A program made the position numbers and the translations under genes. The notes beneath the pieces were generated by a model. It did not search any database, was not told the origin of the DNA, and worked only from the letters and a program-made list of their open reading frames with translations. DNA of 33,420 bases, taken from NCBI GenBank assembly GCA_017543335.1, contig JAFYGE010000016.1, positions 1 to 33,420 on the forward strand, given 5' to 3'. Below, one piece after another: positions 2,051-27,914 of the stretch. The number at the start of each line of letters is the position of its first letter. Position 1 is the first letter of the stretch. Source of the DNA: Ruminococcus sp. Its GTDB lineage: Bacteria > Bacillota > Clostridia > Oscillospirales > Ruminococcaceae.

Positions 2051-2056
2051 GATTTG

Positions 2057-4279: not shown

Positions 4280-4380
4280 GATAAATGCACTCCTTTCATT
4301 TTGTAAGGGCAATTTGGGATATTTTGGTCAGATGAAGTCCTCCCGTATCATCTGCACAAAAACATCCACTATACACCTTC

Positions 4381-6477: not shown

Positions 6478-6549
6478 GTTTATATAAAATGACTGATATT
6501 ATAAAATATAATGCAATAAAGTGAAATTTTTTTGAAAAAATTTACGCTA

Positions 6550-6578
6550 TTGACATTGTTGCAAAGTTGTGTTATATT
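6550..6578 (+). promoter_or_regulatory. Sigma-A promoter of the LRR-transglutaminase-dockerin gene
   Basis: TTGACA (6550-6555), 17 bases, TATATT (6573-6578), giving a leader of about 65 nt to the ATG at 6649. Because a frame is open upstream, a start at 6532 is formally possible. This promoter lies inside that extension, which argues for the 6649 start. Confidence 0.82.
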
Positions 6579-6648
6579 ATTTATGTTGCAACAATTATAT
6601 ATCAATCATTATAGCTATATAAAAAATATATCAAGGAGATTTTTACTA

Positions 6649-9018: not shown

Positions 9019-9030
9019 AGGAGGAGTTAT

Positions 9031-10659
9031 ATGAAAAAAAGCATAAAGTTTCTACTGCAAAGCAAGTCAGCTGTTGAACGTATTGCCGGAAGTTATCCCG
9101 CTGCCGACCGGCGTACAGAAGAAAGAATATATAAAAAAACTATGGAAAAAGTGCGGACGAAATTGGACGGAGAATCTGAACATTCAGATATATATACCGT
9201 TACGCCTGTACGCTCTGTAAGAAGATTCAGAACTGCTGCAATGGCAGCAGCTGTAGTTCTGGTCGTTGGAGCGACAATAGGCGGAGCAGTGTTCAGATTC
9301 CGTCCTGATCCGAAAAAGAAAGATGATCCCCGACCGGTCATAGTTGAGGAACATACAAGGTCGAGTCAGGAAAATGAGAAAGATAAAGTAACAACAGATA
9401 CAGCTGAAACTCAGGTAGTGACCACATCTGCAACTGAAACTACAAGAGTTACAGAAACAATGGTAGTTACTCAGAATGGAGATAATAGAGTAATATATAC
9501 CAAAGTGAACGTTGTAGACAGAGGCAGATACAGTACAGAAACAACAGTGAAGAATAACGGCAGTAATCATCCTACAGTAACTGTAAAGAGTCAGGAGCGG
9601 AAAAATACCGTAACTACGGCAGTCACGGGCAGACGTGATACTAAGTCTGCTGTAACGACGTATCTCTATGGACCTTATAATGCTCCGTCTACTACAACTG
9701 CACCGCCGACGACAACTGCACCGCTGCCTACCACTACATATCCTTATGGAGTAAGTGTGACAACGGTTGATCCTCGATATAACGAGATCGTTACCTATCT
9801 TGAAACGATCAATCCAAAAAGCGGTCCACCTTATGTTGATGTTCAGGAGGCATTCAATAAGAGGCTGTCAAATGAAAAAATAGCTAAACTTGCAGAAGTC
9901 CGCAAAGATGAGAGAGAAGATGGTGTTGAGTATCCGTTCAGGGAGTATCTGGTAGTTGAGGACTATCCTGTTAAAAACCGCCTTGAATTGGACATAGCAA
10001 TAAGAGAGATATTTGTAACATACTGTAATAATTATGAATTTAGTGATGCGATGAATGTCTTTGCTTCTTATCAAAAGTATCCTGATACAACATATTATGA
10101 AAATAATAAAAAGATAGATATTTATAATGTATCGTCCAATGCGGACTTATACATTGATCATGGTAATAAAACGATAAAATACTGCGGCAATGACAAAAAC
10201 GGCATATACATCGAGCGTTATCTATATGGCAATAACTATTCGTATCCTAATCCGTTCGTATCAGTATCTGCGGCGAAGCTTCAAAAGATAAGGGAGTATA
10301 TTAATTCCGGAAGTTCGGTTTATCAAAGAAAAGTCAAGCAAATGGCTGGAGAGCTTTCTGAGAATGCTCCGAGAATTACTCCAGAGCAGGTAAAAAAAAT
10401 AGTAAATTCGACACTCGGTATGTATGCTGATAAAGCCAAGGCTGTATATATGGCAAGCGGCGGTAATCCGGACCGTATCTTGTATTACGGTAATAATGCT
10501 CAATATTATCTTGATGATGATAAAAATGCCTTTATATTATGTTCAAGAGTCATTCCGGGAAGTCCTTATTATGGTTCACGTAATCAGATATTATATTTTG
10601 ATGGGGAAAAGACAGAAGTTTTTTATGATGAATATTCATATGGTATAAGTGTATACTGA
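9031..10659 (+). CDS. Single-pass membrane protein with Thr-rich stalk, putative anti-sigma factor / surface sensor
   Basis: A 542-aa protein. It has a cytoplasmic N-terminus (1-67, charged, with no His/Cys zinc motif of the ZAS type), one membrane helix (about 69-88, AAMAAAVVLVVGATIGGAVF), a long Thr/Ser/Pro-rich stalk (about 110-245, including APPTTTAPLPTTT) and an extracellular C-terminal domain (about 250-542). That domain is rich in Tyr and Asn and I do not recognise its family. The AAAGGAGG site at 9017-9024 overlaps the stop codon of the sigma gene, so the two are tightly coupled. By position and topology it is most likely the anti-sigma factor that holds the ECF sigma at the membrane and senses an outside signal, similar in design to RsgI proteins of cellulolytic clostridia but without visible sequence relation. 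The Thr-rich stalk resembles linkers of the secreted cellulases. Function is inferred; topology is clear. Confidence 0.75.
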   Translation: MKKSIKFLLQSKSAVERIAGSYPAADRRTEERIYKKTMEKVRTKLDGESEHSDIYTVTPVRSVRRFRTAAMAAAVVLVVGATIGGAVFRFRPDPKKKDDPRPVIVEEHTRSSQENEKDKVTTDTAETQVVTTSATETTRVTETMVVTQNGDNRVIYTKVNVVDRGRYSTETTVKNNGSNHPTVTVKSQERKNTVTTAVTGRRDTKSAVTTYLYGPYNAPSTTTAPPTTTAPLPTTTYPYGVSVTTVDPRYNEIVTYLETINPKSGPPYVDVQEAFNKRLSNEKIAKLAEVRKDEREDGVEYPFREYLVVEDYPVKNRLELDIAIREIFVTYCNNYEFSDAMNVFASYQKYPDTTYYENNKKIDIYNVSSNADLYIDHGNKTIKYCGNDKNGIYIERYLYGNNYSYPNPFVSVSAAKLQKIREYINSGSSVYQRKVKQMAGELSENAPRITPEQVKKIVNSTLGMYADKAKAVYMASGGNPDRILYYGNNAQYYLDDDKNAFILCSRVIPGSPYYGSRNQILYFDGEKTEVFYDEYSYGISVY

Positions 10660-12321: not shown

Positions 12322-12903
12322 ATGACTGATAAAAAATTAATTGATATTCCCTCTTCTGAACAATTCGGAAGAGAACTGAAAAGGCTTAGGTATAAAAAAA
12401 GCTTTTTCCGAAACTTGAAAAGTACTGTCGGAGCACTTATAGTAGTTGCTGCGATAGCAGTTATAGTCTCAACGAGACTTATTCCGGTATTCAGAGTTAC
12501 CGGTTCAAGTATGTCTCCTACATTGACAAATGGAGAGGTCGTGATGTGCATGAGGTCATCGCATTATAAGACCGGAGACATAGTTGCTTTCTATTATAAT
12601 AATAAGGTATTGCTTAAAAGAGTCATCGGAGTTCCCGGAGATAATATACTTATTAAAGACGACGGCACAGTCGTTCTTAATGACGAGGAACTTGATGAAT
12701 CTTATGTAAGCGGCAAAGCTAAAGGCGAATGCGACATAACAATGCCATATCAGGTGCCGGAAAACAGATTGTTTGTAATGGGCGACCACAGAGCTGTATC
12801 TGTAGACAGCCGTTCAACTTCCGTTGGATGCATAGCGGAGGAAAATGTGCTCGGCAAGGTGGTTCTGAGAGTTTACCCGTTCGATAAATTCGGAAAGCCC
12901 TGA
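12322..12903 (+). CDS. lepB: Signal peptidase I, pilus-operon encoded
   Basis: A 193-aa type I signal peptidase. A single membrane helix (about 34-54) anchors a catalytic domain outside. The Ser/Lys dyad is intact: Ser63 in TGSSMSPTL and Lys99 in VLLKRVIGVPGD. The GDxRxxSxDSR box is present as MGDHRAVSVDSRS. Length fits the short Gram-positive SipS/LepB group. It sits between a small coiled-coil gene and the giant sortase substrate, so it probably processes the signal peptides of the pilus proteins. Some streptococcal pilus islands have a SipA paralogue in the same role with lost catalytic residues; here the residues are kept. Confidence 0.95.
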   Translation: MTDKKLIDIPSSEQFGRELKRLRYKKSFFRNLKSTVGALIVVAAIAVIVSTRLIPVFRVTGSSMSPTLTNGEVVMCMRSSHYKTGDIVAFYYNNKVLLKRVIGVPGDNILIKDDGTVVLNDEELDESYVSGKAKGECDITMPYQVPENRLFVMGDHRAVSVDSRSTSVGCIAEENVLGKVVLRVYPFDKFGKP

Positions 12904-12938
12904 TAAGGACAAATAAAATGATGAAAGGAGAGAGCGGT

Positions 12939-15900
12939 GTGAAAGATCTGCATAGGAAGATCAATGAACTGATACGAAACAGAAAGCAAAACAGAAGATT
13001 TATAGCGTGTTTGCTGACTCTCTCTGTTTTAGTTACATTTGTAGTTCCGGTGTCGATGATAGCTCCGGGAGTCAGTATGACAAGACAGAATGCGGGAAAG
13101 GTGGATATCTCAAAGATCATTCAGCTTAACCGGAGAGGTGATTCAACACCTTTCGTCAGCTCTGCACCTTCGTCCCCGATGACTGGCAGTAGTGACTTTG
13201 AAGACAAGATAAAAAGTATATCAGTAATCAGCGGCGGTAAAAAATATGACGGTACTCCGTGTATCGTTGATGCAGGAGACGCTGATTCAGCCTTACTCAG
13301 CATTACTCTTAATTATGAGTACAATGGTACTCAACTCGCCGAGTCGGGAATACTTGATAACCACTATGTACACTACAATATCCCGAAAGATTTGATTATC
13401 AGTCAGGACTACTACGGTTCTAATATGACTGTTATCGATACTTCATGGGAACTGGGTTCAACTACACCAGCCGGATATTATGCGATATCCAAAGGTGCAG
13501 ACGGCGGCGGTCTTATATCGATATACTTCACTAATGAATATATCTCATATTTGAATACCTGTACAAACGGATTCAAAGGTGCGATAAACTTCTCTGGTAA
13601 TGTAACAAGAGTAGATGATGCTGACGGCGACAGAACAGTTGTGATAAGTCAGGCAAATAATGTCGAGCTTAATGTGGACTTTGCTGATGACAAACTCACA
13701 ATCGCCAAAGAAGGACAGATCAAACATGAAGGTCCGAATAAATATATTCTCTGGACTGTAACTCTTACAGACCCAAGAGGTTATATCGACCTCAGCCAGT
13801 ATTCACTTACCGATGTTCTGAAAGACAACGGTACAGCTTTAGACTGGTCAACTATAAGAGACATAACGGTTTCACCTGAAGGAAGTGCAACTCATACCGG
13901 AAACGGTAACTTCACACTTGCCGGAAGCAATCAGCAGGTAACTATAACTTATAAGCAGAGAAACCTGACAAACGGACATACATATGATAATGATGTAAGT
14001 GCTCAGAAGGGTGATGAAACACCTATAACTGCTTCAAAGACAATTACGATCGAGAACAAACTCAATATAAGCAAGACCGGTACACCTGATTATTACATTG
14101 ACGGTGCAGGCTCGAACGATAAGATACAGTGGACTATCCACGTTGATAACTATTCAGGCGACGGTCTTGGAAATGCTACTGTTGAAGATTCAGCACCTAT
14201 ACCAGCAGACGCAAAGGTATATTACTTCAATGAAGCATGGCAGAGACAAGAGCTTGCTCCAAGTAAATATACCATAAGCGGAAATACGATCACATTTAAC
14301 CCGGATCCGAACATACCGGCTTCACTCGATATAGTTTATATGAAGGATGTTGCCTTCGATAATACAGACGGTATAGCAAGTACCGAGCAAACTAACAGTG
14401 CGAGCGTAAGACAGAATGTACATAATCCTCCTGATCCGGCATCTACGGGTAATGTAACAGTAAAATATGAACATCAGTTCCAGGTAGGAAAATGGTTCGA
14501 TGACTTCAATTCCGATACGGAAGAAGTAAAGTGGAAGATCACTGCTACAGCTAATGCTTATACCGATCAGAATGGCGAACCGAGAGTCGATGCGAACAGT
14601 AAGCGAACTCTTGACGGATACACCATTTCCGATCCGGCATTTGTGGGTCTTACAGCAGATCAGATAACTTTCAATGCTTTCCGTACATTCAACCGTTGGA
14701 GTGATGCAAGTAAGGAATCAGGATATACGGATCAGGAAGAAGACCTTACTTCTTACGTAACTTTATCTAAAGATCAGAATTCCGATACAGTTACTATCCA
14801 CATTACTGACAATACAAAGATAGTAAACAAAATAGAGCTGTTCTATACAAAGCCTCTCGAAAATACAGCTTTTGAGACCGGAAATTATGCCGGTTATCAG
14901 GCTGGTCAGGAGGTACAGGTAAGTAATACAGCAGAGGGTGCTTCACCTGACGACAAAATGAAAGACGGTGCAGAAGGTGTCGGAACTCTCAAGATGAGAA
15001 TAGAAGGCAGTAAATCCTATAGAGGTATTTCGGAAAATAAGACTTCATCTGTTGTCGGTATGAACGATACAGAGGACAGAGAGCTTAACTGGAAAATAAA
15101 ACTCACTAAGGACAACTATATAGTCAGCGGGGATAAGTTTGAAGACCATATCCTCAATGATGAAAACGGCGGAGTTCATTACATAACTCCGGAACAGGCT
15201 GCGGCAATTGAAATATACGGCAACACTGTCGATAACGAAAGTACAATGACTAAGCTTACAAGCGAAATGTACACTATCAAATTTTTCGATGCCTCCGGTG
15301 ATGAGATAACCGATCTTTCATCTTCAACAAAAAAGGCTGTAAAGTTTGAAGTCACTTTCACTTCTGCGATCGATTCTTCAAAATATAAGTATATAGTGGC
15401 TAATTATAAGACGGAAGCTGACATAAGCGGAGTTGAAAACGGAAAAACTTCTCAGTTCTCAAATAGACTCACATTCAATGAAACTCCTAAGGACGTTCCG
15501 GGAATGAATTTTGAGAGAAAAGATCCAAATCCTGTTGAAACAGTTAAACTAAAACTTACAAAGAGCTGGGAAGATAAGAATAATGCTTATGGAACACGTC
15601 CGGCTAATATAAAGATCAGAATATGGCAGGCCATTGCAGAAGATGGAGCTGCTCCGGCTGAAACTGATACCGAAAAGTGGACTATGTTTAAAGAGTATAC
15701 CCTTTCAGCAGGTGCAAAGACCGGCGAAGATCAGTTTGAATTGCCAGACAATGTTCCAAAATGGGCGGTCGACGAAAACGGATGCGTTAACGACTACTAT
15801 TATAGAGTAGAAGAAGTTCTTGATGAAGAATCCGGTTATACCGCTACTTACAATAATAAACTGATAAATGCAATGACCTATAATCAGTATGACAGCAATC

Positions 15901-18900
15901 AGAATTTGAAGGTCACTAATAAAACTGATGTTAAAGGTTATGGTAAGTCAAGTATACGTTTCGATTATGAGGGAGTGCTCGACAGCGTCAACAGTACCGC
16001 TGATCTTAATAAAAAGACTCTTGATCTGGACGGCAGTGGAACAGCAAAAGAATATTACATATTCCGCTGGCTGCTGAACTTTGATATGGGTTCAGATAAA
16101 ACAAAACAGATAACGTATATCGATACGCTGCCGGAAGGTGCGATTTATCTTGACACAGCTAAAGCTCAGTCATTAGGCAGTGATTATGCTCCGGCAATAT
16201 CGTATGATGATAACCCTACATGGCGAAGGGACTTCCCGATAGGGTATGAATATTACGGTATGAATGATACGTATGAAGTGGACGGAGATACGCTTACTCT
16301 TACACTTCGTGAGAATACAGTAGCTTTCAGATATTGTATCGCTATACCAGTTGATAAGCTTGATGAGGCACTCGTAAACGGAGTTCTCACTAATAAGATA
16401 AGAAAAGAAGATGACACCAAGGATAAGACAGCAACTCTTACTATTATAAACAGCTCGATACCGGATGATCCGATAAATGATGAAAATAATCATCTTAATA
16501 AGAAGTTCAATGCCGGCGTTGCAGGCGGATATCTCAATTATAGTCTGGAAGTAAATCCAGAGGGAGAGAAGCTTACTAACGATGATTACATCAGCATCAC
16601 CGATAAGCTTACACTCGGTGAGGGAAGCAGCAAGACGATGGATAACCTGAGACTTGCTCTCGATCATATCGCAGTTTATCCTTATAATGAGGACGGAACT
16701 GTTGATAAGACTCATCCGATAACCGATTACAGCTATACGATCGATTATAATTACGCTCCTCGTTCGGGTCTTACAGTATCCGAAAGAAAGCCAGCTTCCA
16801 AGGACGGTTCTAATGTCGGATTCTTCTTGGTAGACGGCTGGAAGGCTGGAGACTATGTAACGATAACCGCTAATAAGAATCCTGTTGTGAACGGTGATTC
16901 GCCTGGAGAAGTTTACTTCTATACCGACTTTGATGAAGAAGCACCGAATTGGTATGCTAATATGGTGCAAAGTCAGACCGCTTTACCGGCATATAATAGT
17001 TCTGGTACAAGTGTACTTAATTTTAAAGTACCGGAAAACGCTAAATATATCGTGATCGTTGATAAATCAAACTATGGTTATAATGATGATCATGGAGTTT
17101 ATCATAGTAATGTAAATCGAATGCTCGATAATATAGAAGCTTTTTCAACTCCTGAAGCGATACCGGCAGTACTTAATGTAGAAGTTCCGGATCAGCAGCA
17201 TCTGTATGTTGAGTATAGATACAGCGTAACAGGTTACACACCAAATACAGCAGGTCCGGGTGCACCAAGCAACGGCGATAAGATCTATTTCGACAACGTT
17301 GCTTCGTTTGAAGAAGATAATGCGAGCGGCTGGTCTAAACAGTCACACAGCGAAATGAATGTCAGCGATTCAAGTGCGAGTGCAGAGGCTATCAAATATC
17401 CAAGTATATATAAGGTAGACGTAAACAACTACACTCTTAATACTCTTAGTGCTGTATTCAAGGTCGCAAAATACGATACTGATTCAGGACAATGGGTATA
17501 TGCAAGCAGCATAGAACCTGTACTCCGTGAAAGCAAGTATGTAAGAAAATTCACTTTCCCTGATGAAGCGGTCGGATATACCGAGGTTCAGAAGGGCACC
17601 AATGATAAAACATATCCAGAGGCAGCCGCTTCTTTGGTATTTGCAGACAGCGATGATGCTGCAACAGATGACAAAGAAAATGTTCACGATTTTATCCTTG
17701 AACAGAAAACACTCTACAAATTCGTAGAGGTGCAGGCTCCTACCGATTACCTACAGCCTGATTGGTCAAACGGCGGATTCAAAGCTAACAGCGAGTATGT
17801 GTTCTATTACTCATACGATGGTTTTAATGGAACACCTCCTGAAGATGCTTTTGATGAAAACGGAATCAGCCGCATCAGACCACTCACTACATACGGCACA
17901 GCTAATATCCCGAACAGCTGCCGTATACAGTTACAGGCTAAAAAGACTTTCTCCGGTAAGGATATAGATATTCCGGACACAGCTTCTGTAGAGCTTAAAC
18001 TCTACTACTCATTCGACAAGAACGGAACTGATCTTAAACCGGTTACTAAGGAATTCCTCGGACTTCCTGCATCGGATACAACATTTAGTAATCCGATAAA
18101 CGCAACTTATAAAAAGAATCCGGTTGATCCTGACGCAGTTATCGACACAGTCGAGTGGACAGGACTCCTGACCGGTAAAAACGGCTCTCCAGTCTACTAC
18201 TTCGTACAGGAAGAAAGCTATACCGCTAATGGAAAGAAATATACTTTTGATCCGGCAAGCGGAAGATTCAAGCATAATGATGAGATAAGCCCGTTTATTC
18301 CGGTATATACCAGAAATGGTACAAATAAGGACGGTACTCAGATAGGCGTAAACAACTCGGAGGGCATTCAGGTCAAAAAGAGATGGATAAACCTCGACGG
18401 AAAAGAGATACCACCGCCTAAGGAAGTTGGTTCTTCAACAGAATCAATGGCTGTAGACTTCGAGGTCTACGGAATAAAGGGTCCTTACAAAGTTAAGCTT
18501 GATCTTGAAGATCATGTGCTTAACGCTGCTAATGAGTATAAACTACAGCTTCCTGTAGAGGTTGGACTTGTAGATGTTCCTGCGGGTTCGGCTGCTACAT
18601 ATCTGGAATATACAGAAGGTAAAAAATACCCGCTTGCATATTTCGATAATTTTGAGGTTGCAGAAAAACTCACGGATGCACAGAAAGCGGCTCTTGAGGG
18701 CAAGTTCCTTGAACCGCAGACTTCAAGAATGATAAGCAATGGTACCGGTGTTCTTGAAATTATCAATACCGATAAGAGACAGACGGCGGTAAATGCTACA
18801 GTCGAAAAGATATGGAACGATATGGGTGCCGATCACAGCGGCGACCAGATAAGAGTTAAATTCGTACAGTCACTGTATCAGCTTACGGAAGAGCAGCTCG

Positions 18901-21900
18901 AAGCAATAGCAGAAGGCAATATTCCGGAGGGTACATATACAGGTGAAGATATCCAGTCAAACAAAGATGTTAAGGTCATTGTAAAAGGCAAGACTAAGGC
19001 ATTCATTCTGGATAGCAATATATCCTCGATATCGTCAGCAAGCTCGATAGCTACTATAAATCATAACAGCGATCAGCTTATAATTACCGGAGATACAGCC
19101 GGTACTGAAACGATAACAGTCACCTTCTCGGACGGAACTGAACAGGAACTTACGATAACTGTAATCGAACCGGAAGTGCTGCTCGATGAAACAGGCAGCT
19201 GGACGGCTTCATGGAACGGACTTCCTTCAGCAGATGACAGCGGCAGTGATTATTACTACTATGCTGTAGAAGAAGAAGTTCCGGAAGGCTACATAGCTTC
19301 ATATGTAAACAGAACATCATCCGGAACATTCAGAACAACTATTACCAATACTCAGCCAACAGAGCTGAAAATTGTAAAGAAATGGTATGATGTTCTCGGA
19401 GATGAAATAGTGACAGATCCTGATGATGCTGATTATAATGCCGCTAAGCTAAATAAACTGCCGGATAGTATAACAGTTGAGATCTATCAGCTGCTTGCTT
19501 CACAGGCAGGAGGCACAAAGCTCGCAATGCCAGCGGATGCCGATATCAATTCTATTTTGATAGGCACTCCTTATAGGATATGCACGCTTGAAAAAGCGGA
19601 CGGCTTCAGTAAGATACTGAAGGATCTGCCAAAAACAAACGATCAGAATGAGGAATATGTATACTACTTCAAAGAGGTCGGCACTCATGTGCTCAACTCC
19701 GCAGAAGGATACTATAACTTGTCTGAACCGGAATACAGATATATTTCGGAAGTAAAATATCAGAACAATGGTCTTGTGGCTACTGAAAACGGAATTGTTA
19801 CTATAAGCAATAAGTTGAAGCCGGCAAAGATCAAGTTCATCAAGACATGGGCTGACGGAAACGAAAACCATGACGGCGAACAGGTAACGATAAGAGTTTA
19901 TCGTTCAACAACAGCAGATACCGAAGAAGCTCAGCAGAATCCGCTCATACTTTCACTGGATAAGAATCCGGTAACTATGACAAAGAGCGATACAAGCGGA
20001 GTTACGGTAACTGCAAATCAGAAGGTAAAGATAATCTCTGCCGAAGGCGAAGATTATGACGATACTCTGATAAATGTGGCAACGGACGGAGTTGCCGGAC
20101 GTATCCTGAATATTACTCCTACAGGTACGAAAACCGGAACTACTACCATTAAGCTTCAATCAGAGGACGGACAGATAGTTGAACTTATTGTCAATGTTAC
20201 AGACGATCCGGCATTGATGCTTACAGCTGATAAGTCAACATTCAAATATGATGAGACTCCGGCTGTGCTGACTGCAACTTATACAGCTCCGGGAGAAACT
20301 CCTGAGGATGTAACAAATAAGAGCAGCATAGGCTATACAAGCAGCAATACTGATGTGATCGAAGTAGCAGCTGACGGAACATTAACGGTCAATGGCGTAG
20401 GCGATGCGACAATAACTGCAACCTATAAGGGCTTGCAGGACAGCGTAACACTTACAGTTGAACTTCCGGATACATTTAATGTAATCGGTGAGGATACCGT
20501 TAATATGGGAGATACGCTCGATTTAGACGTTGATCCTCCATTCGGTACATTTGAATGGTCATCAAGTGACGAGACTGTCGCTACAGTCGACGACAATGGT
20601 GTTGTAACTCCGGTAGGTGAGGGTACTGCTAATATCACAGCTACTCGAAATGACGAAGAGACAGCGTCGAAGGAGATCACTGTAAATGCTTCCAAGAAGA
20701 TGCCGTTTATATTTGAAACATCAGGAGATCAGGAGATAAGCAGAGGTGAACTGAGCTATACTTACGATCAGGAAACTGGAATAATAACTCTTAATATTCC
20801 TGCTGTAGAAGACGGCGGTACAGAATACAGGAAGTATCTTATAAATGCTCTCCAGACAAATGATGAGCTTAAAGACCTGAAGCCTCTTAAATATGAGGTT
20901 TATCCGGAGACCGGACAAAATAATGCAATCGGTATTTCAGCTCCTGGTATAGACTGGAAAGAAAATAATGGCACAATTAATGCAGCTAATCCGACTGTGT
21001 TCGATGCTTCCGGTTCTGCTGCACTAAGCAGTAAACCAGTATTGATACAGGTGAATAACGTTCAGGGTCCATATGTAATAAAGATCCATACGAAAGCTAA
21101 AACCGAATATCTAGAGCTTGATGAAATTGCTGGTCAGGAGGTTTCATTTACTCCGGGAACTAAATATATTATTAGTTCTTCATCACCTATAACTTCGATT
21201 TACAGAACATATGGAAATGATAATAATGTATCAGTAAACGGAAATACTCCAGGTTGGTGGGTAGATGTAAATTATACGGCTGGAAGCACATCATTTGATC
21301 TTACAGTTAAACAAGCTAATCTGAATTGGGGCGAATCGATCACTGTAGAGACTGCTGATGGCAATAAAACGATCATCGCAAAATCTCCACCAGCACCAAA
21401 CGGAGCTCCAAGAAGACGCTCGGCAGCACCGGGTACTGAAAGCGGAATGCCGCTTACAAGATTCAGTGCATCAACATTACGACTTGGAAAGGCTAAAGCA
21501 TATGCAGCATCAGCTCCGTCAGAAATACCGGAGACTGGCTCAGCAGATAGCGGTCAGAAGTCGATGATGAGCACTCCAAAAAGATCAGCGGGTACGCCGA
21601 CATTTGAAGATGACGGCTACATCGAAAAGACAATAAGCAGCAGCGATGACTGGCAGCTTATTGCAAATGATCTTCCAATGTACAACGTTAAGGCAGACGG
21701 AACTGTTGAACCTTACTACTATTGGATAGAAGAAGTCGGCGGAGCAGACGGCTACAAAGCAAGCTATCTGTTCATCGACGGCGACGAACATACCGAATAT
21801 TCAGTAAATGCTTCAACAGGAACAACGCCTGAAATAACGATACAAAATACTCCGGATGATACTGGAGTAGAACTTCCCGAAACCGGCGGCAAGGGAATGA

Positions 21901-21986
21901 AAACAATTTATATGGCAGGAGGTGTTATGATACTTCTTGCTATCGCCGGAGGTTTAAAGGTAAGAAAACGTATTAAAAACGTATGA
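12939..21986 (+). CDS. Giant LPETG-anchored adhesin with CnaB and Big-like domains (about 3015 aa)
   Basis: The GTG at 12939 is preferred, with AAAGGAG eight bases upstream; an in-frame ATG at 12918 with AAGGA is a possible alternative. The N-terminus has a long basic leader and hydrophobic segment (21-42). At least four tandem collagen-binding/DUF11-like units follow, marked by W motifs (WTVTL ~270, WTIHV ~396, WKITA ~530, WKIKL ~717); similar FRWLLNF and LNYSLEV units lie near 1043 and 1198. CnaB domains begin near 869 (LKLTKSWEDKNN), 1810, 1951, 2143 and 2296, and a SpaA-like unit lies near 1490-1610 (LYKFVEVQAPTDY). The CnaB domains at 1951 and 2296 are split by Big-like insertions. A basic Ser/Ala/Pro stretch (about 2815-2890) holds an internal IPETG (2863). 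The sorting signal is LPETG (2979-2983), a membrane helix and KVRKRIKNV. The protein is wall-anchored and may form the pilus tip (inference). Confidence 0.93.
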   Translation: MKDLHRKINELIRNRKQNRRFIACLLTLSVLVTFVVPVSMIAPGVSMTRQNAGKVDISKIIQLNRRGDSTPFVSSAPSSPMTGSSDFEDKIKSISVISGGKKYDGTPCIVDAGDADSALLSITLNYEYNGTQLAESGILDNHYVHYNIPKDLIISQDYYGSNMTVIDTSWELGSTTPAGYYAISKGADGGGLISIYFTNEYISYLNTCTNGFKGAINFSGNVTRVDDADGDRTVVISQANNVELNVDFADDKLTIAKEGQIKHEGPNKYILWTVTLTDPRGYIDLSQYSLTDVLKDNGTALDWSTIRDITVSPEGSATHTGNGNFTLAGSNQQVTITYKQRNLTNGHTYDNDVSAQKGDETPITASKTITIENKLNISKTGTPDYYIDGAGSNDKIQWTIHVDNYSGDGLGNATVEDSAPIPADAKVYYFNEAWQRQELAPSKYTISGNTITFNPDPNIPASLDIVYMKDVAFDNTDGIASTEQTNSASVRQNVHNPPDPASTGNVTVKYEHQFQVGKWFDDFNSDTEEVKWKITATANAYTDQNGEPRVDANSKRTLDGYTISDPAFVGLTADQITFNAFRTFNRWSDASKESGYTDQEEDLTSYVTLSKDQNSDTVTIHITDNTKIVNKIELFYTKPLENTAFETGNYAGYQAGQEVQVSNTAEGASPDDKMKDGAEGVGTLKMRIEGSKSYRGISENKTSSVVGMNDTEDRELNWKIKLTKDNYIVSGDKFEDHILNDENGGVHYITPEQAAAIEIYGNTVDNESTMTKLTSEMYTIKFFDASGDEITDLSSSTKKAVKFEVTFTSAIDSSKYKYIVANYKTEADISGVENGKTSQFSNRLTFNETPKDVPGMNFERKDPNPVETVKLKLTKSWEDKNNAYGTRPANIKIRIWQAIAEDGAAPAETDTEKWTMFKEYTLSAGAKTGEDQFELPDNVPKWAVDENGCVNDYYYRVEEVLDEESGYTATYNNKLINAMTYNQYDSNQNLKVTNKTDVKGYGKSSIRFDYEGVLDSVNSTADLNKKTLDLDGSGTAKEYYIFRWLLNFDMGSDKTKQITYIDTLPEGAIYLDTAKAQSLGSDYAPAISYDDNPTWRRDFPIGYEYYGMNDTYEVDGDTLTLTLRENTVAFRYCIAIPVDKLDEALVNGVLTNKIRKEDDTKDKTATLTIINSSIPDDPINDENNHLNKKFNAGVAGGYLNYSLEVNPEGEKLTNDDYISITDKLTLGEGSSKTMDNLRLALDHIAVYPYNEDGTVDKTHPITDYSYTIDYNYAPRSGLTVSERKPASKDGSNVGFFLVDGWKAGDYVTITANKNPVVNGDSPGEVYFYTDFDEEAPNWYANMVQSQTALPAYNSSGTSVLNFKVPENAKYIVIVDKSNYGYNDDHGVYHSNVNRMLDNIEAFSTPEAIPAVLNVEVPDQQHLYVEYRYSVTGYTPNTAGPGAPSNGDKIYFDNVASFEEDNASGWSKQSHSEMNVSDSSASAEAIKYPSIYKVDVNNYTLNTLSAVFKVAKYDTDSGQWVYASSIEPVLRESKYVRKFTFPDEAVGYTEVQKGTNDKTYPEAAASLVFADSDDAATDDKENVHDFILEQKTLYKFVEVQAPTDYLQPDWSNGGFKANSEYVFYYSYDGFNGTPPEDAFDENGISRIRPLTTYGTANIPNSCRIQLQAKKTFSGKDIDIPDTASVELKLYYSFDKNGTDLKPVTKEFLGLPASDTTFSNPINATYKKNPVDPDAVIDTVEWTGLLTGKNGSPVYYFVQEESYTANGKKYTFDPASGRFKHNDEISPFIPVYTRNGTNKDGTQIGVNNSEGIQVKKRWINLDGKEIPPPKEVGSSTESMAVDFEVYGIKGPYKVKLDLEDHVLNAANEYKLQLPVEVGLVDVPAGSAATYLEYTEGKKYPLAYFDNFEVAEKLTDAQKAALEGKFLEPQTSRMISNGTGVLEIINTDKRQTAVNATVEKIWNDMGADHSGDQIRVKFVQSLYQLTEEQLEAIAEGNIPEGTYTGEDIQSNKDVKVIVKGKTKAFILDSNISSISSASSIATINHNSDQLIITGDTAGTETITVTFSDGTEQELTITVIEPEVLLDETGSWTASWNGLPSADDSGSDYYYYAVEEEVPEGYIASYVNRTSSGTFRTTITNTQPTELKIVKKWYDVLGDEIVTDPDDADYNAAKLNKLPDSITVEIYQLLASQAGGTKLAMPADADINSILIGTPYRICTLEKADGFSKILKDLPKTNDQNEEYVYYFKEVGTHVLNSAEGYYNLSEPEYRYISEVKYQNNGLVATENGIVTISNKLKPAKIKFIKTWADGNENHDGEQVTIRVYRSTTADTEEAQQNPLILSLDKNPVTMTKSDTSGVTVTANQKVKIISAEGEDYDDTLINVATDGVAGRILNITPTGTKTGTTTIKLQSEDGQIVELIVNVTDDPALMLTADKSTFKYDETPAVLTATYTAPGETPEDVTNKSSIGYTSSNTDVIEVAADGTLTVNGVGDATITATYKGLQDSVTLTVELPDTFNVIGEDTVNMGDTLDLDVDPPFGTFEWSSSDETVATVDDNGVVTPVGEGTANITATRNDEETASKEITVNASKKMPFIFETSGDQEISRGELSYTYDQETGIITLNIPAVEDGGTEYRKYLINALQTNDELKDLKPLKYEVYPETGQNNAIGISAPGIDWKENNGTINAANPTVFDASGSAALSSKPVLIQVNNVQGPYVIKIHTKAKTEYLELDEIAGQEVSFTPGTKYIISSSSPITSIYRTYGNDNNVSVNGNTPGWWVDVNYTAGSTSFDLTVKQANLNWGESITVETADGNKTIIAKSPPAPNGAPRRRSAAPGTESGMPLTRFSASTLRLGKAKAYAASAPSEIPETGSADSGQKSMMSTPKRSAGTPTFEDDGYIEKTISSSDDWQLIANDLPMYNVKADGTVEPYYYWIEEVGGADGYKASYLFIDGDEHTEYSVNASTGTTPEITIQNTPDDTGVELPETGGKGMKTIYMAGGVMILLAIAGGLKVRKRIKNV

Positions 21987-22052: not shown

Positions 22053-23870
22053 ATGAAAAATACAAGAAGATTTTTAGCAATGGCAGCTGCCCTTGCACTT
22101 ACAGCTTGCACAATGGCTCCAGTAGCTTCATTCGCAGCAGATCCTGTTTCTGTAAACGTTAAGATGAATACTTCTGCTGATAATGCAGAGCACACCTACA
22201 CAGCATATCAGATCTTTACCGGTGCGTATGACAATACCGATCCAGATAATCCAGAGTTCAATATAACCGGTTGGGGTGCAGATGCAGCAGCTCTGAAAGA
22301 AAATGCTGCTTTCCTCGCATTCAAGAAGAGCGAAGCAGGTTCAAAGACTGTAGGTGAGTATATCGATGCTCTTCCTGCTACTGCAACAGACGCTCAAAAA
22401 GCAGCAGCTGCTGCTAAGGCACTTGACGGAATCGATGATGACTCAACAGATGCTCAGGCACTCGCAGACATTGTTGCTAAGGCTATAACAACAGGCGGAA
22501 CAGCTATTGCAGCAGATGGTACAGATCTTGTTGAGGGCTATTACCTCATCAAGGATTCATACACAGCAGCTGGTGATACCAACGATGCAGTTTCAAGATT
22601 CATACTTCAGGTATCTTCATCTGATAAGGCTGCAACTGGTCTTTCAGTAGCTACTAAGAAGTCCTATCCTTCAGTAATCAAGAAGGTACAGGAAAATGTA
22701 AAGACTACTACAGGCTATACAGGAACTCCTTCAGCTCTTGAGGCAGAGGTTGATAACTCTGCAAAGTGGAATGACGTTGCTGACTATAGCATTGGTTCAG
22801 ATGTTCCATTCCAGCTCTATGGTTCAATGCCTGCTACTCTTGAAGATTACGATCACTACTACTACAAGTTTACTGATACTCTCGGAACACAGTTTGATCA
22901 GCCTAAGACAGTAGAAATCAAGGTTGGCGACAACACAACACTTACAGCAAGTAATCCTGTTGACGGTGTTTACACAGTAGAAGGTGATACCGGAACAAAC
23001 TGCCGTGTTAAGTGGGATTCTGAAAAGAATCAGCTTATAGTAACATTTGAGGATATAAAGGCTTATGACGGCGTTAACGCAAATACTATCGTAACCGTAA
23101 AGTACTCAGCTAAGCTTAATAGTACAGCTAATATTGGTATCCCAGGACAGGAGAACAAGGTTGACCTTACATACTCAAACAATCCGAATTGGGAATATAC
23201 TCCTAACACAAACGATGAAAAAGAGGACGTTCCAAAGGATGACAAGGGTACACCAGATGAGGAAGACGATGAGGAGAAGACAGACAAGACTCCTGAGGAT
23301 AAGGTAATCGTATTCACATACGAGATCGATGTTACCAAGATCGACGGCACAACTAAGGACGTTCTTGCAGATGCTGAATTCGAGCTCAAGAGCGGCACAA
23401 ATACTATCAAGTTCATCGATAATGGCAACGGTACATATACAGTTGCTGACCAGGATCTTAGAGATGGTGTTACAACAACTGTTAAGTCTGGTGAAAACGG
23501 TATATTCAAGCTTATCGGTCTTGATGACGGTACATATACCCTCACTGAGACTAAGGCTCCTGAGGGATATAAGCTCCCTGCTGATCCTGACGTAACACTG
23601 ACATTAACTGCAACAACAGTTAACAATCAGACTTGGGACGGAGATGCAAAGAAAGCTCTTACAAATCTTGCACTGAATAATGTATCTGTAGAAGATACAA
23701 CTGATTTCGATGTTGCAAAGATCGACGTTGAGAACAACAAGGGAACATCACTCCCAACAACCGGTGGCATGGGTACTACACTGTTCGTACTCGGCGGCGG
23801 CTGTGCAGCTGGTCTCGCAGGTATCTACCTCGTTTCCAGAAAGAGATCTAAGGACGAAAACGCTGACTGA
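22053..23870 (+). CDS. Major (backbone) pilin, LPTTG-anchored, isopeptide-forming type
   Basis: A 605-aa secreted pilin, with AAGGAG eight bases before the ATG. The signal peptide covers 1-29 (ending SFAAD). A pilin-motif candidate is YPSVIKK (205-211), whose lysine would accept the LPXTG threonine of the next subunit. A central domain (about 210-400) resembles the middle domain of Gram-positive backbone pilins. A Pro/Asp/Glu-rich acidic linker (about 390-420) follows. A SpaA/CnaB-type domain starts at about 425 (VTKIDGTTKDVLADAEF) and carries an E-box near 494-505 (YTLTETKAPEGY), which supports an internal Lys-Asn isopeptide bond. The sorting signal is LPTTG (567-571), a helix and a basic tail. 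Immediate flanking by hairpins and the downstream class C sortase identify it as the polymerised shaft subunit (inference from family knowledge). Confidence 0.95.
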   Translation: MKNTRRFLAMAAALALTACTMAPVASFAADPVSVNVKMNTSADNAEHTYTAYQIFTGAYDNTDPDNPEFNITGWGADAAALKENAAFLAFKKSEAGSKTVGEYIDALPATATDAQKAAAAAKALDGIDDDSTDAQALADIVAKAITTGGTAIAADGTDLVEGYYLIKDSYTAAGDTNDAVSRFILQVSSSDKAATGLSVATKKSYPSVIKKVQENVKTTTGYTGTPSALEAEVDNSAKWNDVADYSIGSDVPFQLYGSMPATLEDYDHYYYKFTDTLGTQFDQPKTVEIKVGDNTTLTASNPVDGVYTVEGDTGTNCRVKWDSEKNQLIVTFEDIKAYDGVNANTIVTVKYSAKLNSTANIGIPGQENKVDLTYSNNPNWEYTPNTNDEKEDVPKDDKGTPDEEDDEEKTDKTPEDKVIVFTYEIDVTKIDGTTKDVLADAEFELKSGTNTIKFIDNGNGTYTVADQDLRDGVTTTVKSGENGIFKLIGLDDGTYTLTETKAPEGYKLPADPDVTLTLTATTVNNQTWDGDAKKALTNLALNNVSVEDTTDFDVAKIDVENNKGTSLPTTGGMGTTLFVLGGGCAAGLAGIYLVSRKRSKDENAD

Positions 23871-23940: not shown

Positions 23941-23963
23941 GAGAGACTAACAAGGAGAAGATG

Positions 23964-24845
23964 ATGAAGAAAAAGCGTGAAACACTTATTACAGTAATTC
24001 TGATTTTCATTTTCCTTGCAGGCCTCTCCGTGATGCTTTATCCGACAGTTAGTAACTGGTGGAATCAGCGTATGCAAATGAAAGCAATAGTTGAATATAA
24101 GGAGACTGTGGCTCAGCTCGACGAAAAAGAGATTGATGCCAGAATTGCAGAAGCAAGGGAATATAACCGTAAACTCGCAATGCTTAGTGCTCCGTTCAGA
24201 AATTATGACCAGATAGAGGGCTATGATGATATACTTGATATATCAGGCACCGGCATCATGGGATATATAACTATTCCATGCATACGTGTAGAGCTTCCGA
24301 TATATCACGGTACAGACGAAGGTGTATTGCAGATAGCTGCCGGACATATAAAGGGTTCTTCATTCCCTGTTGGCGGAGCATCAACACATTCGGTAATATC
24401 CGGTCACCGTGGACTTCCCTCTGCAAAGCTCTTTTCAGACCTTGATGATATGGTCGAGGGCGATATTTTCACGGTTAATGTACTCAACGAGGTGCTGACC
24501 TATGAGGTCGAGAAGATAATCAAGATACTTCCCGATCAGACTGAGGAGCTTGCGATCATACCTCAGGAAGATTACATGACTCTTATGACCTGTACCCCAT
24601 ATGGAGTAAATACTCACAGACTTCTCATAAGAGCTCACAGGATCGACAATTTCGATCAGGGCCGCAGAGTTAAAGTGCCTGCTGACGCATTACAGGTCGA
24701 CAGAATGACAATAATGCCATTAATATTAGTACCGCTTATAGCTGTACTTGTTATCTATTGGATCATAACAGGAAAACGAAAAAAAGATATGTATATAGAC
24801 AAATATATAATAGAAAAAATAAAATTGCCAAAGGACGGTGAGTGA
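23964..24845 (+). CDS. Class C (pilus-polymerising) sortase
   Basis: A 293-aa membrane sortase. The second of two adjacent ATGs (23964) is preferred because AAGGAG is then six bases away. An N-terminal helix (about 6-26) and a C-terminal helix followed by GKRKKDMY give the two-helix topology typical of class C enzymes. The catalytic residues are His148 (SGHRGLPSAKLF), Cys210 (TLMTCTPYGVNTHR) and Arg223 (LLIRAHR); TLMTCTPYG is the class C signature. It should join pilin monomers by cutting LPTTG and linking threonine to the pilin-motif lysine. It lies directly after the major pilin, and its stop codon sits four bases before the next start. Confidence 0.95.
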   Translation: MKKKRETLITVILIFIFLAGLSVMLYPTVSNWWNQRMQMKAIVEYKETVAQLDEKEIDARIAEAREYNRKLAMLSAPFRNYDQIEGYDDILDISGTGIMGYITIPCIRVELPIYHGTDEGVLQIAAGHIKGSSFPVGGASTHSVISGHRGLPSAKLFSDLDDMVEGDIFTVNVLNEVLTYEVEKIIKILPDQTEELAIIPQEDYMTLMTCTPYGVNTHRLLIRAHRIDNFDQGRRVKVPADALQVDRMTIMPLILVPLIAVLVIYWIITGKRKKDMYIDKYIIEKIKLPKDGE

Positions 24846-24846
24846 T

Positions 24847-25788
24847 ATGAAGGCTGCTAAAAAGCGAATATTTTCAGTGATAGCTGCAATAGGCTCGATA
24901 ATGCTTATGCTTACGGCTGTTTTATCATGGAACTGTGCTTTTGCTGAAGAAGCTCCGAGCCTGAATCTGATATGCCGTAGGGATGATACAATTCTTGTAG
25001 GTATGGAATGGCGTATATACAGAGTGGGAAAGATGCAGGGCAAGGAACTTGTGCTTGAGGGAGACTTTGCAAAGTATTCCGTGAGCCTCGGTGAATTGAC
25101 TGCTGACGAGAATATGAAGGCTGCAAAAACTCTTGAAAGCTATGCGGTCGCTGATAATATCCCGATACTGAAAAACGGAAAGACTGACAGCAAAGGTGAG
25201 TTAAAGTTCAATGACCTCGAAACGGGCGTTTACCTTGCTGCCGGAACAGATCTTATCAGCGGTGAAGTAATTTACGTTCCTTCAACATTCCTTATTAACA
25301 TTGCTGAGGAAAATGCCGAGCTTAGTTACGACGCTTATCCTAAGTTCATAATGCGTTCAACTAATGATTTTTACAATAAATATGCAGTCAAGAAGGTATG
25401 GAAGGGCGATGAGTCCGCTCTCGCTGACAGACCTGTTGAGATAGATGTTGAAATTTATTGCGACGGCAGTCTGTATGATACCATAAAGCTTAACAGCGAG
25501 AATAACTGGCAGTACTCATGGCTCTCAGAAAAAGACAAGAAAAACTGGAGCGTCGTTGAACGCAATATCCCGTCTGAATATACTGTAGCTATCGACCATA
25601 ATGAAACACAGTTCATTATTGAGAATACTTATAAGAAATCAACAACTCCACCTGTCACAACAACTGTTTCCAAAGAGAAGATTCCTCAGACCGGACAGCT
25701 GTGGTGGCCTGTGATACCAATGGTCGGCGGCGGAGTGGTCATGATAGGTATAGGTGCCTTCCTCAGACCTAAAAAGGATGAAGAATGA
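24847..25788 (+). CDS. Minor pilin with CnaB domain and IPQTG sorting signal
   Basis: The ATG at 24847 is preferred; a GTG at 24838 overlapping the sortase gene is possible. The protein is 313 aa. The signal peptide covers residues 1-34 (ending CAFA). The N-terminal domain (about 38-170) resembles the first domain of FctB-like minor pilins (GELKFNDLETGVYLAAGTD). A CnaB domain follows (about 175-262; YAVKKVWKGDESALADRP, then WSVVERNIPSEYTVAI). A short Thr/Pro stretch leads to the sorting signal IPQTG (279-283), a hydrophobic helix and RPKKDEE. The deviating motif IPQTG, also found as IPxTG on several basal pilins, suggests a minor subunit placed at the base or tip. A different sortase may handle it, perhaps the one encoded next. 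Its stop codon overlaps the next start in ATGA. Confidence 0.9.
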   Translation: MKAAKKRIFSVIAAIGSIMLMLTAVLSWNCAFAEEAPSLNLICRRDDTILVGMEWRIYRVGKMQGKELVLEGDFAKYSVSLGELTADENMKAAKTLESYAVADNIPILKNGKTDSKGELKFNDLETGVYLAAGTDLISGEVIYVPSTFLINIAEENAELSYDAYPKFIMRSTNDFYNKYAVKKVWKGDESALADRPVEIDVEIYCDGSLYDTIKLNSENNWQYSWLSEKDKKNWSVVERNIPSEYTVAIDHNETQFIIENTYKKSTTPPVTTTVSKEKIPQTGQLWWPVIPMVGGGVVMIGIGAFLRPKKDEE

Positions 25789-26438
25789 AAAATAAAATAT
25801 GGAAATTATTTGTAATTGCTGGAACAATGCTGATATTATCGGCATTGTTCCTTTGCTTGTATAACGTGTGGGATTCCCGCAGAGCCGGAAAACGTGCGGA
25901 GGATATTCTCGTCCAGCTTAAAGACGAGATACCGGAGACTCATGAGTACACTCAGGAGTCAGACTTAACTCCGCCAGACAGCGAGGAAGATCTCTTTGAG
26001 CAATATAGCAATGAAACTGATGAAGTCAAGACTATAAGTATTGACGACAGATATTACTGCGGATATATCATGATTCCTAAACTGGGTACCGAACTTCCTG
26101 TTATGGACGGCTGGAGCTATGAGGGACTTAAATACTCACCCTGTCGTTACAGCGGCTCGGTGCAGGATGATGATATAGTCATAGCAGCACATAACTACAG
26201 CAGCCATTTCGGTAATATCCGTGACCTCGTTCAGGGCGACGAAGTTGATTTTATCGACTGCTCCGGAACTGTTCACCGCTATGAAGTCATATACTCAGAG
26301 GAAATAGACGGCTATAACGTTGAACAGATGCTCCGCCGTCAGGACGGTGAATGGGATATGACGCTGTTTACCTGTACACTCAGCGGACAGAGCAGAGTGA
26401 CGGTCAGACTCGAAAGGATAAAGGAAAAGGAGGATTGA
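25785..26438 (+). CDS. Second sortase (not class C), probable anchoring enzyme
   Basis: A 217-aa sortase with one N-terminal helix (about 6-27) and no C-terminal helix, so it is not class C. The catalytic residues are His136 (IAAHNYSSHFG), Cys197 (TLFTCTLSG) and Arg208 (VTVRLERI). The core starts near residue 88 (YCGYIMIPKLGTELPVMDG). Motifs look B/D-like, but I cannot fix the class by eye. The start codon overlaps the previous stop (ATGA), which implies translational coupling with the minor pilin. It most likely attaches the finished pilus, or the IPQTG subunit, to the cell wall (inference). Confidence 0.9.
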   Translation: MKNKIWKLFVIAGTMLILSALFLCLYNVWDSRRAGKRAEDILVQLKDEIPETHEYTQESDLTPPDSEEDLFEQYSNETDEVKTISIDDRYYCGYIMIPKLGTELPVMDGWSYEGLKYSPCRYSGSVQDDDIVIAAHNYSSHFGNIRDLVQGDEVDFIDCSGTVHRYEVIYSEEIDGYNVEQMLRRQDGEWDMTLFTCTLSGQSRVTVRLERIKEKED

Positions 26439-26439
26439 G

Positions 26440-27774
26440 ATGAAAAAACTGATATGTTTATGTACAGCAGCAGTGCTTGCAGTCAGTGCAGGCTGTGCTA
26501 AGAAGTCAGAAAAAGCATCTTCGCCTCTTATGGGACTTGGCTGGTATGATAAGTCGGATGAAGTCCGTGAAAAGCTCAGCGACAAAAAGCTCGTAAAGGA
26601 ACGAAGTGTCAACATCTACGATGCCGATCAGCTTATGCTGGACTATTCCGGTGTCGAACTTCTCGATATAAACTGCGATCTTTCACTTTGCTTTGTTAGT
26701 GACGGACTTATAGGTCTGAATTACCACGATCTCGATCACGGCAGAAACTATATGGAGTGGAGAAATAAGCTGGAGGATATTTACAGCTCCCCGACAGAGG
26801 AGGGCGGCGGTATAGCAGTATGGTATGATGATCCTCTCGGCAGAGATACGGTCGTTTACCTTTTCAATCTTGAAGAGGGCATACAGGTGTCGTTTTACAC
26901 TACAGCCGCAACTCCGGATAATTCCTATGAGCGTCAGAGGGACTATGTTCCTTCGCCGGAAGTAAGGTCGCCTGTAGTTCCGGTCATATCCGACGGCGAG
27001 ACTTTTATCGAGCCTACAAAAAAAGAAGCTCCGACAGAAGCTCCTGAAAATACGGTGCAGACCGAAGCTGATATTCCTCAGTATGAAACCCAATATGTAC
27101 CTGCTGAGCAAGATGTTCCGCCGGATGATGATGAAGAAACTCCGGAGACAGATGAAAATAATAAACTGATTGATAATGCCGCAGCCGTTACGAGGGTCGT
27201 AACAAAACCCGGAAAGAGTAACGACCGTAAAATTACTGCCACTACTTCTAAACCACGTACTCCAGTCTCTACAACAGCGGCTTTAAATACCGTTACCGCA
27301 GCCAATACCTCGGTAACCTCAACAGCTGTTACTACAACTGTACCATATGTTGACAGGACTAAGGACTTTAAACTCAACGGTCTTGAATTCTACAGTAATC
27401 CGTCAGTAGAGAGAAAGAAAATGTCAGGCTATATAAAGCGTTACGAGTACCGCACAGAGGAAAAGGGTCAGCCGTGGCAGATAATAATGGAGTACGGCAG
27501 CGTGAAATATTGCGGAAAATTCTGCGATATAGTGCTTTGCTTCACGAGCCGTGGACTTGTCGGCATAAATTACTTTGACGATAAGAGCAGCAATTATCAT
27601 TTCTGGGTGAATAAGCTTACCGAGATATATGGTACTCCTTCCGATAGCGAGGGCAGCTATGCTGTATGGGATAATGCTCCGGTCGGTAAGGGAACTGAAA
27701 TTTATGTTTTCGCTATGGAGGACGGTGTCCAAATATCGTTCTTCGCAGACGATACAGGCTCGGAAATGTCATAA
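26440..27774 (+). CDS. Lipoprotein with duplicated domain, last gene of the pilus operon
   Basis: A 444-aa protein with a lipoprotein signal peptide (VSAGC, lipid Cys19). Two homologous domains are separated by a Pro/Glu/Thr-rich linker of about 150 residues. Domain 1 is about 30-158 (LCFVSDGLIGLNY, NKLEDIYSSPTEEGG, AVWYDDPLG, EEGIQVSFY). Domain 2 is about 310-438 (LCFTSRGLVGINY, NKLTEIYGTPSDSEG, AVWDNAPVG, EDGVQISFF). The family is not known to me. An AAAAGGAGG site overlaps the end of the sortase gene, so it is in the operon. It may be a membrane-anchored accessory factor of pilus assembly or a wall-located binding protein (inference). It ends directly at the 27772-27915 palindrome. Confidence 0.85.
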   Translation: MKKLICLCTAAVLAVSAGCAKKSEKASSPLMGLGWYDKSDEVREKLSDKKLVKERSVNIYDADQLMLDYSGVELLDINCDLSLCFVSDGLIGLNYHDLDHGRNYMEWRNKLEDIYSSPTEEGGGIAVWYDDPLGRDTVVYLFNLEEGIQVSFYTTAATPDNSYERQRDYVPSPEVRSPVVPVISDGETFIEPTKKEAPTEAPENTVQTEADIPQYETQYVPAEQDVPPDDDEETPETDENNKLIDNAAAVTRVVTKPGKSNDRKITATTSKPRTPVSTTAALNTVTAANTSVTSTAVTTTVPYVDRTKDFKLNGLEFYSNPSVERKKMSGYIKRYEYRTEEKGQPWQIIMEYGSVKYCGKFCDIVLCFTSRGLVGINYFDDKSSNYHFWVNKLTEIYGTPSDSEGSYAVWDNAPVGKGTEIYVFAMEDGVQISFFADDTGSEMS

Positions 27775-27886: not shown

Positions 27887-27914
27887 GCACCGTATTCAGT
27901 CCGGTGCGTTTTTT
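27887..27914 (+). terminator. Terminator of the pilus operon
   Basis: Stem GCACCG / CGGTGC (27887-27892 with 27902-27907) with a 9-nt loop, followed by G and six T (27909-27914). It lies against the GH74 stop codon and mirrors the minus-strand terminator at 27773-27800. Confidence 0.85.

Follow-up and report, generated by a model that had tools for sequence, protein, structure and literature searches.

CnaB domains are closed by a bond that joins a lysine of the first strand to an asparagine of the last, with a glutamate as catalyst (PMC12617251 and PMC7900414). A 2025 survey describes both the CnaA and the CnaB fold as tolerating domains inserted in their loops, and names RrgA and Spy0125 (PMC12617251); since these two insertions were already described, the principle of nesting is itself known. 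Here we analyse a giant LPXTG pilus protein of Ruminococcus sp., encoded on a stretch of 33,420 nucleotides (contig JAFYGE010000016.1 of assembly GCA_017543335.1; “the window” throughout, one contig of a 2.4 Mb genome that lies in 95 contigs and is 85.88% complete), in which two CnaB domains are interrupted by other domains at the same loop. On sequence alone it has the mark of a domain-inserted pilus adhesin, a foreign domain in the loop of an isopeptide domain. The protein is probably a large pilus subunit in which two CnaB domains act as cargo sockets, with a covalently closed stalk and an exchangeable terminal cargo.

Results

Two CnaB domains split at one hairpin loop

A preliminary description of this DNA had placed the start and the resumption of two CnaB domains in the giant protein, and on re-reading the sequence its motifs and coordinates were found where it had put them (Table 1). 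The first split domain has VEKIWND at 18801 and GSWTASWNG at 19194; the terminal one has KIKFIKTW at 19827 and DWQLIAND at 21648, after which LPETGG follows at 21873. Exactly one uninterrupted CnaB lies between the two, in agreement with the earlier wording that the second split domain is the next but one. The terminal domain starts at residue 2303 and resumes at about residue 2900, leaving around 565 residues between its halves.

Profiles of the C-terminal half (C-half) were derived from 13 CnaB domains that are uninterrupted in relatives, with the window's own excluded and 420 shuffled proteins as the null. They gave 45.2 bits on the resumed half of the first split domain and 35.5 bits on that of the terminal one (shuffle maximum 8.8). 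Pfam Cna_B also matched the former, its best stretch being residues 2063-2145 against profile positions 18-87 (E 6e-12). The N-terminal halves (N-halves) were scored with leave-one-out profiles from 98 N-halves, with 265 shuffles as the null; the terminal N-half of the window reached 5.7 bits (shuffle maximum 3.3), so that this domain is matched over both halves. The first N-half of the window did not exceed 5 bits, and its counterparts scored 9.0 bits in the ortholog L003 and 13.6 in L034. As this N-half is not listed by the profile, its assignment rests on reading of the sequence together with L003 and L034. The search with split profiles that the preliminary description had proposed thus recovered both C-halves and the terminal N-half, but not the first N-half. 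With profiles from uninterrupted domains neither N-half of the window exceeded 6 bits (shuffle maximum 5.1); those of L003 gave 7.9 and 7.1.

The place of the split is the same in both domains. A profile of the uninterrupted domains of relatives finds as its best sequence match in the PDB the B region of the Staphylococcus aureus collagen adhesin (1D2P, E 1.2e-32). On this structure the insertion site lies between VELYQ and the segment that carries the NW motif; Cna B has just a short connection there, and it is here that the uninterrupted domains of relatives differ in length. Both inserts of the window occupy this hairpin loop; the presumed reactive Lys precedes each, and the presumed Glu and Asn follow it. 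The residues expected of a CnaB domain (a first-strand Lys, a central Glu and a last-strand Asn) are therefore present in the sequence. Among aligned terminal C-halves the Trp, Glu and Asn are invariant (14/14). Of the 53 terminal N-halves, 51 have Lys where expected according to a pattern search; the exceptions are L112 and L113, in which the pattern had caught an earlier Trp and the Lys is present on reading by eye. As the cargo stands between Lys on one side and Glu and Asn on the other, the bond would link the halves across it, and tension could bypass the cargo. The nesting of the inserts proposed earlier is upheld by these opposite positions, by the shared loop and by matching domains that occur with and without an insert.

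Table 1. Features of the giant protein and its pilus operon (window positions)
Feature	Position	Strand	Basis
Signal peptidase I of the pilus operon	12322..12903	+	TIGR02227, E 1.1e-36
Giant LPXTG pilus protein, 3022 residues, host of the split domains	12918..21986	+	Open reading frame; TIGR01167 anchor model above cut-off
First split CnaB, N-half, residues 1957-1994; presumed reactive Lys (VEKIW)	18786..18899	+	Read in sequence
First insert, about 80 residues, Ig-like	18930..19175	+	Low-scoring hits to several families of bacterial Ig domains, all under cut-off; phmmer hit against a Big module of L102 (E 0.00038)
First split CnaB, C-half, residues 2087-2148; presumed Glu in YYYYAVE, presumed Asn in TITNT	19176..19361	+	Pfam Cna_B; C-half profile
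Uninterrupted CnaB, residues 2150-2302	19365..19823	+	Comparison with relatives
Terminal split CnaB, N-half, residues 2303-2336; presumed Lys (FIKTW)	19824..19925	+	Leave-one-out profile
Cargo part 1: three Big-type Ig modules; boundaries approximate, first module least certain	19935..20693	+	Pfam Big_2; phmmer to cargo modules of relatives
Cargo part 2: module of about 230 residues, no Pfam family; common to L003, L102 and partly L034	20694..21383	+	phmmer, iterated profile, Pfam
Cargo part 3: linker of low complexity that leads back to the stalk	21384..21614	+	Sequence
Terminal split CnaB, C-half, residues 2900-2980; presumed Glu in YYYWIEE (its second E), presumed Asn in TIQNT	21615..21857	+	C-half profile
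LPETGG sorting signal, membrane segment, basic tail	21873..21983	+	Sequence; anchor model
Major pilin, isopeptide-forming backbone type	22053..23870	+	TIGR04226, SpaA, GramPos_pilinBB above cut-offs; NF033902 below its cut-off
Class C (pilus) sortase	23961..24845	+	NF033745, E 1.2e-79
CnaB minor pilin	24838..25788	+	Cna_B, E 3.4e-11
Second sortase	25785..26438	+	TIGR01076, E 3.6e-12

The terminal CnaB is split in nearly all same-genus proteins examined

Relatives were sought with a survey model, A3, that covers only the C-half and the anchor. Matches were found in 67 of 125 genomes. From 61 loci and the window came 69 open reading frames (ORFs) of more than 700 residues, the window's included, and the 53 with a complete terminal domain and an anchor above 40 bits were kept; they derive from 20 + 40 regions, L003 and the window, with some weaker or partial matches outside this sample. 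The 16 left out include L046, which runs off its contig, L123, and the proteins of L047-L053. G001:C40, whose contig equals that of L003 in length, did not enter the count separately. For the terminal N-half, 43 of the 53 were scored directly, L039 was scored with the profiles from uninterrupted domains, eight were assigned by eye, and L106 is intact. The terminal CnaB was thus split in 52 of the 53, a share that may be overstated because A3 was built from 14 split proteins and its best matches were taken first. The gap in these 52 ranges from 93 to 1321 residues (median 554). The surmise that such an architecture would be uncommon was consequently mistaken for this genus, in which the inserts are often catalytic domains.

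Beyond the genus the division is more even. A search at family level gave matches in 21 of 247 genomes (three of them of the same genus), from which 15 regions were taken after G319 and G421:C17 (stop inside), G195, G374 and extra places had been left out. Among 15 proteins from other genera of the family the terminal domain was split in nine, by CBM77 in two, Big in one and inserts of unassigned kind in six, and was intact in the remaining six. At order level matches were found in 12 of 295 genomes; seven loci were read, with short flanks and one of them from the same family, and of these four were intact, one was split (gap 140), and in two no N-half was found within the stretch read. The homologues lacking an insert for which the preliminary description had called were therefore found for the terminal domain, in L106, in the six proteins of other genera of the family and in the four order-level loci. 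They were found also for the first split domain, since its counterpart is uninterrupted in five relatives of the same genus (L035, L036, L038, L044 and L046).

These spacings bear on whether the two halves form one domain at all. That the halves come from two separate domains, complete or decayed, and are paired by chance is very improbable: a C-half match above 10 bits lies between the terminal halves in only one of the 53 proteins (L039, 11.8 bits), the terminal N-half starts no more than 25 residues after the previous C-half match in all 53, the halves of the six intact domains outside the genus are 14 to 29 residues apart, and domains at the same position occur both with and without an insert. 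Chance pairing would fit the shortness of the N-halves, only about 30 residues with low scores in the window, and the outcome of a pairing test in which different domains were picked in several relatives. In this test the window's first N-half picked the matching domain in five of five same-genus relatives and its C-half in three, so the two agreed in three of five. For the terminal domain both halves picked the terminal one in two of five, both of them split, and in none of the four relatives that have at least two CnaB domains and an uninterrupted terminal one. Among CnaB pairs over stricter limits the gap was at most 53 residues in 91 of 107 non-terminal pairs and at least 93 in 37 of 38 terminal ones. 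Among the 16 long gaps at non-terminal places, some contain GDSL domains and some reflect a half that was missed, as with the window's entry from 1817 to 2089.

The same loop was also seen filled in proteins of a different type. In L048, L049, L052 and L053, near residues 420-680, an unassigned stretch of about 120 residues occupies it, and L047, of the same type, has a gap of 22 there.

The loop holds domains of different kinds among relatives

Both inserts had been called immunoglobulin-like. For the first this holds weakly, in that no Pfam cut-off was reached (Big_2 14.7 bits, E 0.03, cut-off 22.8) and the counterpart in L003 also fell short of it (17.4 bits, E 0.0043). For the second it holds in part. 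Big_2 scores 49.2 bits on the window protein in two stretches, the best of which (2543-2586, E 5.3e-13) lies within this insert; the first of its three modules alone matched no Big family. The second insert also contains the 230-residue module, to which neither phmmer nor an iterated profile nor Pfam gave a named family, and a low-complexity linker. The domain inserted in RrgA is of the von Willebrand factor A (vWA) type; no thioester or vWA family of Pfam was found in the window protein at E up to 0.1. No relative of the terminal region was found in a search of viral contigs.

The kind of cargo differs widely among the 53 same-genus proteins: GH9 in 19, CBM_4_9 in 11, Big only in 10 (the window included), GDSL in one and unassigned in 11, with one intact. 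Pfam itself made 16 of the GH9 and two of the CBM_4_9 calls, the remaining three and nine being made by profiles built from them. In all, GH9, GDSL, CBM_4_9, CBM77 and Big_2 were found by Pfam in the inserts. Most of the nested GH9 domains cover nearly the whole Pfam model, those of L041 and L088 in two pieces and that of L045 in permuted order, and both catalytic motifs, sought with simple patterns, are present in 16 of 19. The GH9 of L045 (residues 1443-1903 of 2460) looks circularly permuted, with profile positions 37-421 first and 1-39 after them; Pfam reports it as two stretches, of which the best covers 43-443. A further CnaB is a host in relatives: the domain that positionally matches the window's intact CnaB 2150-2302 holds a GDSL esterase in L034, L035, L036, L038 and L046.

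Mapped on a tree of 55 class C sortases, the six states of cargo require 16 changes, against a possible minimum of 5 and an average of 33.5 in shuffles; cargo is therefore clustered by kinship, yet has also been exchanged. GH9 alone requires 5 changes, and the window's well-supported group of seven sortases comprises six with Big and one with GH9.

The ratio of nonsynonymous to synonymous change (dN/dS) was obtained from one sequence pair, the window and L003. It was 0.14 and 0.20 in the two terminal halves, 0.18 in the Big modules and 0.28 in the 230-residue module. The Big modules of the cargo (19935-20693) share 97% amino acid identity with those of L003 (dS 0.095), as compared with 88% and a dS of 0.367 for residues 60-1955; the closer similarity could reflect recent exchange.

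The constraint on the halves is relevant to a rival account, in which the halves stay unclosed, no isopeptide bond forms and the Big modules merely make the fibre longer, in series with the stalk. Such ordinary stalk extension would suit the frequent use of Big modules as stalk repeats, the weak N-half similarity seen in the window and the unusable structure models. It is nevertheless unlikely given the low dN/dS of both terminal halves, the invariance of the C-half residues with retention of the N-half Lys, and the persistence of the split across very different cargo and over the whole range of gap lengths.

The giant protein belongs to a sortase-pilus operon

The operon runs in the order signal peptidase I, giant protein, major pilin, class C sortase, CnaB minor pilin and second sortase. 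The giant protein accordingly has what is expected of a sortase-dependent pilus subunit, an LPXTG signal and a place in an operon with a major pilin and a class C sortase. The same arrangement recurs among the relatives: 56 of the 62 proteins with enough room (window counted) are followed by sortase C and a major pilin, and a signal peptidase lies upstream in 49 of 54. Rather than the simple “wall-anchored adhesin” of the earlier description, this is the first subunit, and a large one, of a conserved sortase-pilus operon. An IPETG motif inside the protein, at residue 2870, was weighed as a possible further sorting signal and rejected, as the two residues after IPE differ in L003 and no hydrophobic segment follows.

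Since the genome is a fragmented and incomplete assembly, fusion of separate genes by an assembly error or frameshift might be suspected. The probability of this is negligible: the protein is a single uninterrupted ORF of 3022 codons, it is 88% identical over its full length to an ortholog in a metagenome-assembled genome (MAG) of Ruminococcus from goat omasum (dN/dS 0.22), and dozens of genomes have proteins of the same plan.

At the end of the operon lies an ORF of 444 residues (26440-27774) with no Pfam or NCBIfam match, which also adjoins other pilus operons, such as those of L003, L045, L102, L103 and L110. Upstream of the operon, at 8458-10659, a Sigma-70-type factor is followed by a 542-residue ORF without a Pfam family; the two are possibly a sigma/anti-sigma pair. 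The pilus locus is flanked (1-4312 and 31580-33175) by a GH94 phosphorylase and by two GH9 cellulase genes, of which one is truncated at the window end. Also present are a dockerin protein that combines BspA-type leucine-rich repeats with a transglutaminase-like domain (6532-8310), and a BNR/Vps10-type repeat protein (27913-30618).

Discussion

The split, the shared loop, the intact homologues, the classes of cargo and the operon can be read directly from the sequences. Upon these we propose the following arrangement as the probable one. The giant protein would be the large subunit of a sortase-assembled pilus, probably at its tip, and two of its CnaB stalk domains would serve as hosts, one hairpin loop of each having been opened to admit other domains. 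The flanking halves would together complete the CnaB fold, and an autocatalytic Lys-Asn bond would join N-half and C-half covalently across the cargo. The closed CnaB would then carry the pulling force, and the cargo, on its side branch, would be spared the tension. The terminal CnaB, beside the sorting signal, would be a conserved socket in which cargo is swapped among lineages: GH9 cellulases, carbohydrate-binding modules (CBMs), a GDSL esterase or Ig modules.

Several observations weigh against this proposal, in addition to the mixed outcome of the pairing test and the possible bias of the survey towards split proteins. The N-half evidence from the window is slight, the terminal score being low and the first N-half falling under the threshold, and the first insert reaches no family cut-off. 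AlphaFold models of both split regions, for which the alignment consisted of the window and L003 only, had mean pLDDT values of 38.5 and 41.8, and none shows the CnaB halves packed together; because both predictions are unusable, it is from sequence that we infer the fold, the bond and the geometry of the branch. All 11 CBM_4_9 proteins fall inside one clade of 12 on the sortase C tree. Little constraint is seen in the linker (dN/dS 0.46) or in the 42-codon anchor (1.18). No sortase C adjoins downstream in six of the 62 giant proteins with room (L038, L042, L043, L105, L106 and L153), two of which, L042 and L105, carry GH9, so some such proteins may not be pilus subunits. Finally, no recognised enzyme or CBM was among the Pfam matches of the window's own cargo.

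A Foldseek search with the low-confidence model of 700 residues returned seven matches at E ≤0.001. The best was a multi-modular xanthanase (E 3.6e-5, TM-scores 0.13 and 0.10), with Big_2-CBM56 chains lower; owing to the quality of the model these were not used.

The role of the window's cargo is most likely to help bind the pilus to plant fibre, or to present it there, because cellulase genes adjoin the locus and GH9, CBM_4_9 and CBM77 are the cargo of sister proteins at the same place. The cargo may alternatively be mainly an adhesive or spacer module for contact with the host or with other microbes, as its lack of a recognised enzyme or CBM and the 230-residue module without a Pfam family would allow; we consider this less likely in view of the sister cargo and of the nearby genes, which encode two GH9 cellulases, a GH94 phosphorylase and a dockerin protein. 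For this Ruminococcus group as a whole, we put forward as a proposition with even chances that the sortase pili carry an exchangeable socket, a bonded terminal CnaB that shows fibre-degrading domains on a load-bearing pilus while keeping them free of load.

If the socket proposal is true, it would provide a route for surface display of cellulases separate from the cellulosome, in which docking is by cohesin and dockerin. Fibre-degrading gut bacteria would be mounting enzymes and binding modules on covalent pili with the mechanical path kept closed, which would join two seldom-meeting fields, sortase pili and plant-fibre degradation. It would also be a natural counterpart to the engineering of split CnaB domains of the SpyCatcher type, and the loop would be a candidate site for enzyme display. 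For annotation, a caution is that Cna_B models may catch only one half of a split domain.

In a literature search that covered few subscription journals or preprints, no glycoside hydrolases, esterases or CBMs nested in pilus CnaB domains were found. What we take to be new is the exchangeable enzyme cargo at a fixed CnaB site; nesting inside CnaB is known from Spy0125 (Cpa) of Streptococcus pyogenes. There too, a CnaB-like domain has another domain inserted between its isopeptide-forming residues (PMC12617251 and PMC4282584). It differs in that a single thioester domain is inserted (inserted thioester domains are named in PMC12617251), whereas the window has Big modules and the 230-residue module; its relatives have enzymes or CBMs at the same loop, and there is more than one host domain per protein. 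RrgA of Streptococcus pneumoniae is alike in having a large domain inserted in an isopeptide domain of a pilus subunit (PMC12617251), but its host is CnaA-like and its cargo is neither Big, enzyme nor CBM. The B repeats of the S. aureus collagen adhesin, the best sequence match in the PDB for the intact relatives, are an uninterrupted CnaB stalk, and the loop that bears cargo in the window is a short stretch in them. The cellulosome of Ruminococcus flavefaciens likewise displays plant-fibre enzymes on the surface (PMC3672088), but differs from the system of the window in having no nesting inside a covalent pilus subunit. SpyTag/SpyCatcher, SpyLigase/KTag and PilVax resemble the window protein in the splitting of CnaB and the insertion of peptides in pilin loops by engineering (as outlined in PMC7900414); those systems are man-made, whereas here the split is natural and both halves are held in one chain.

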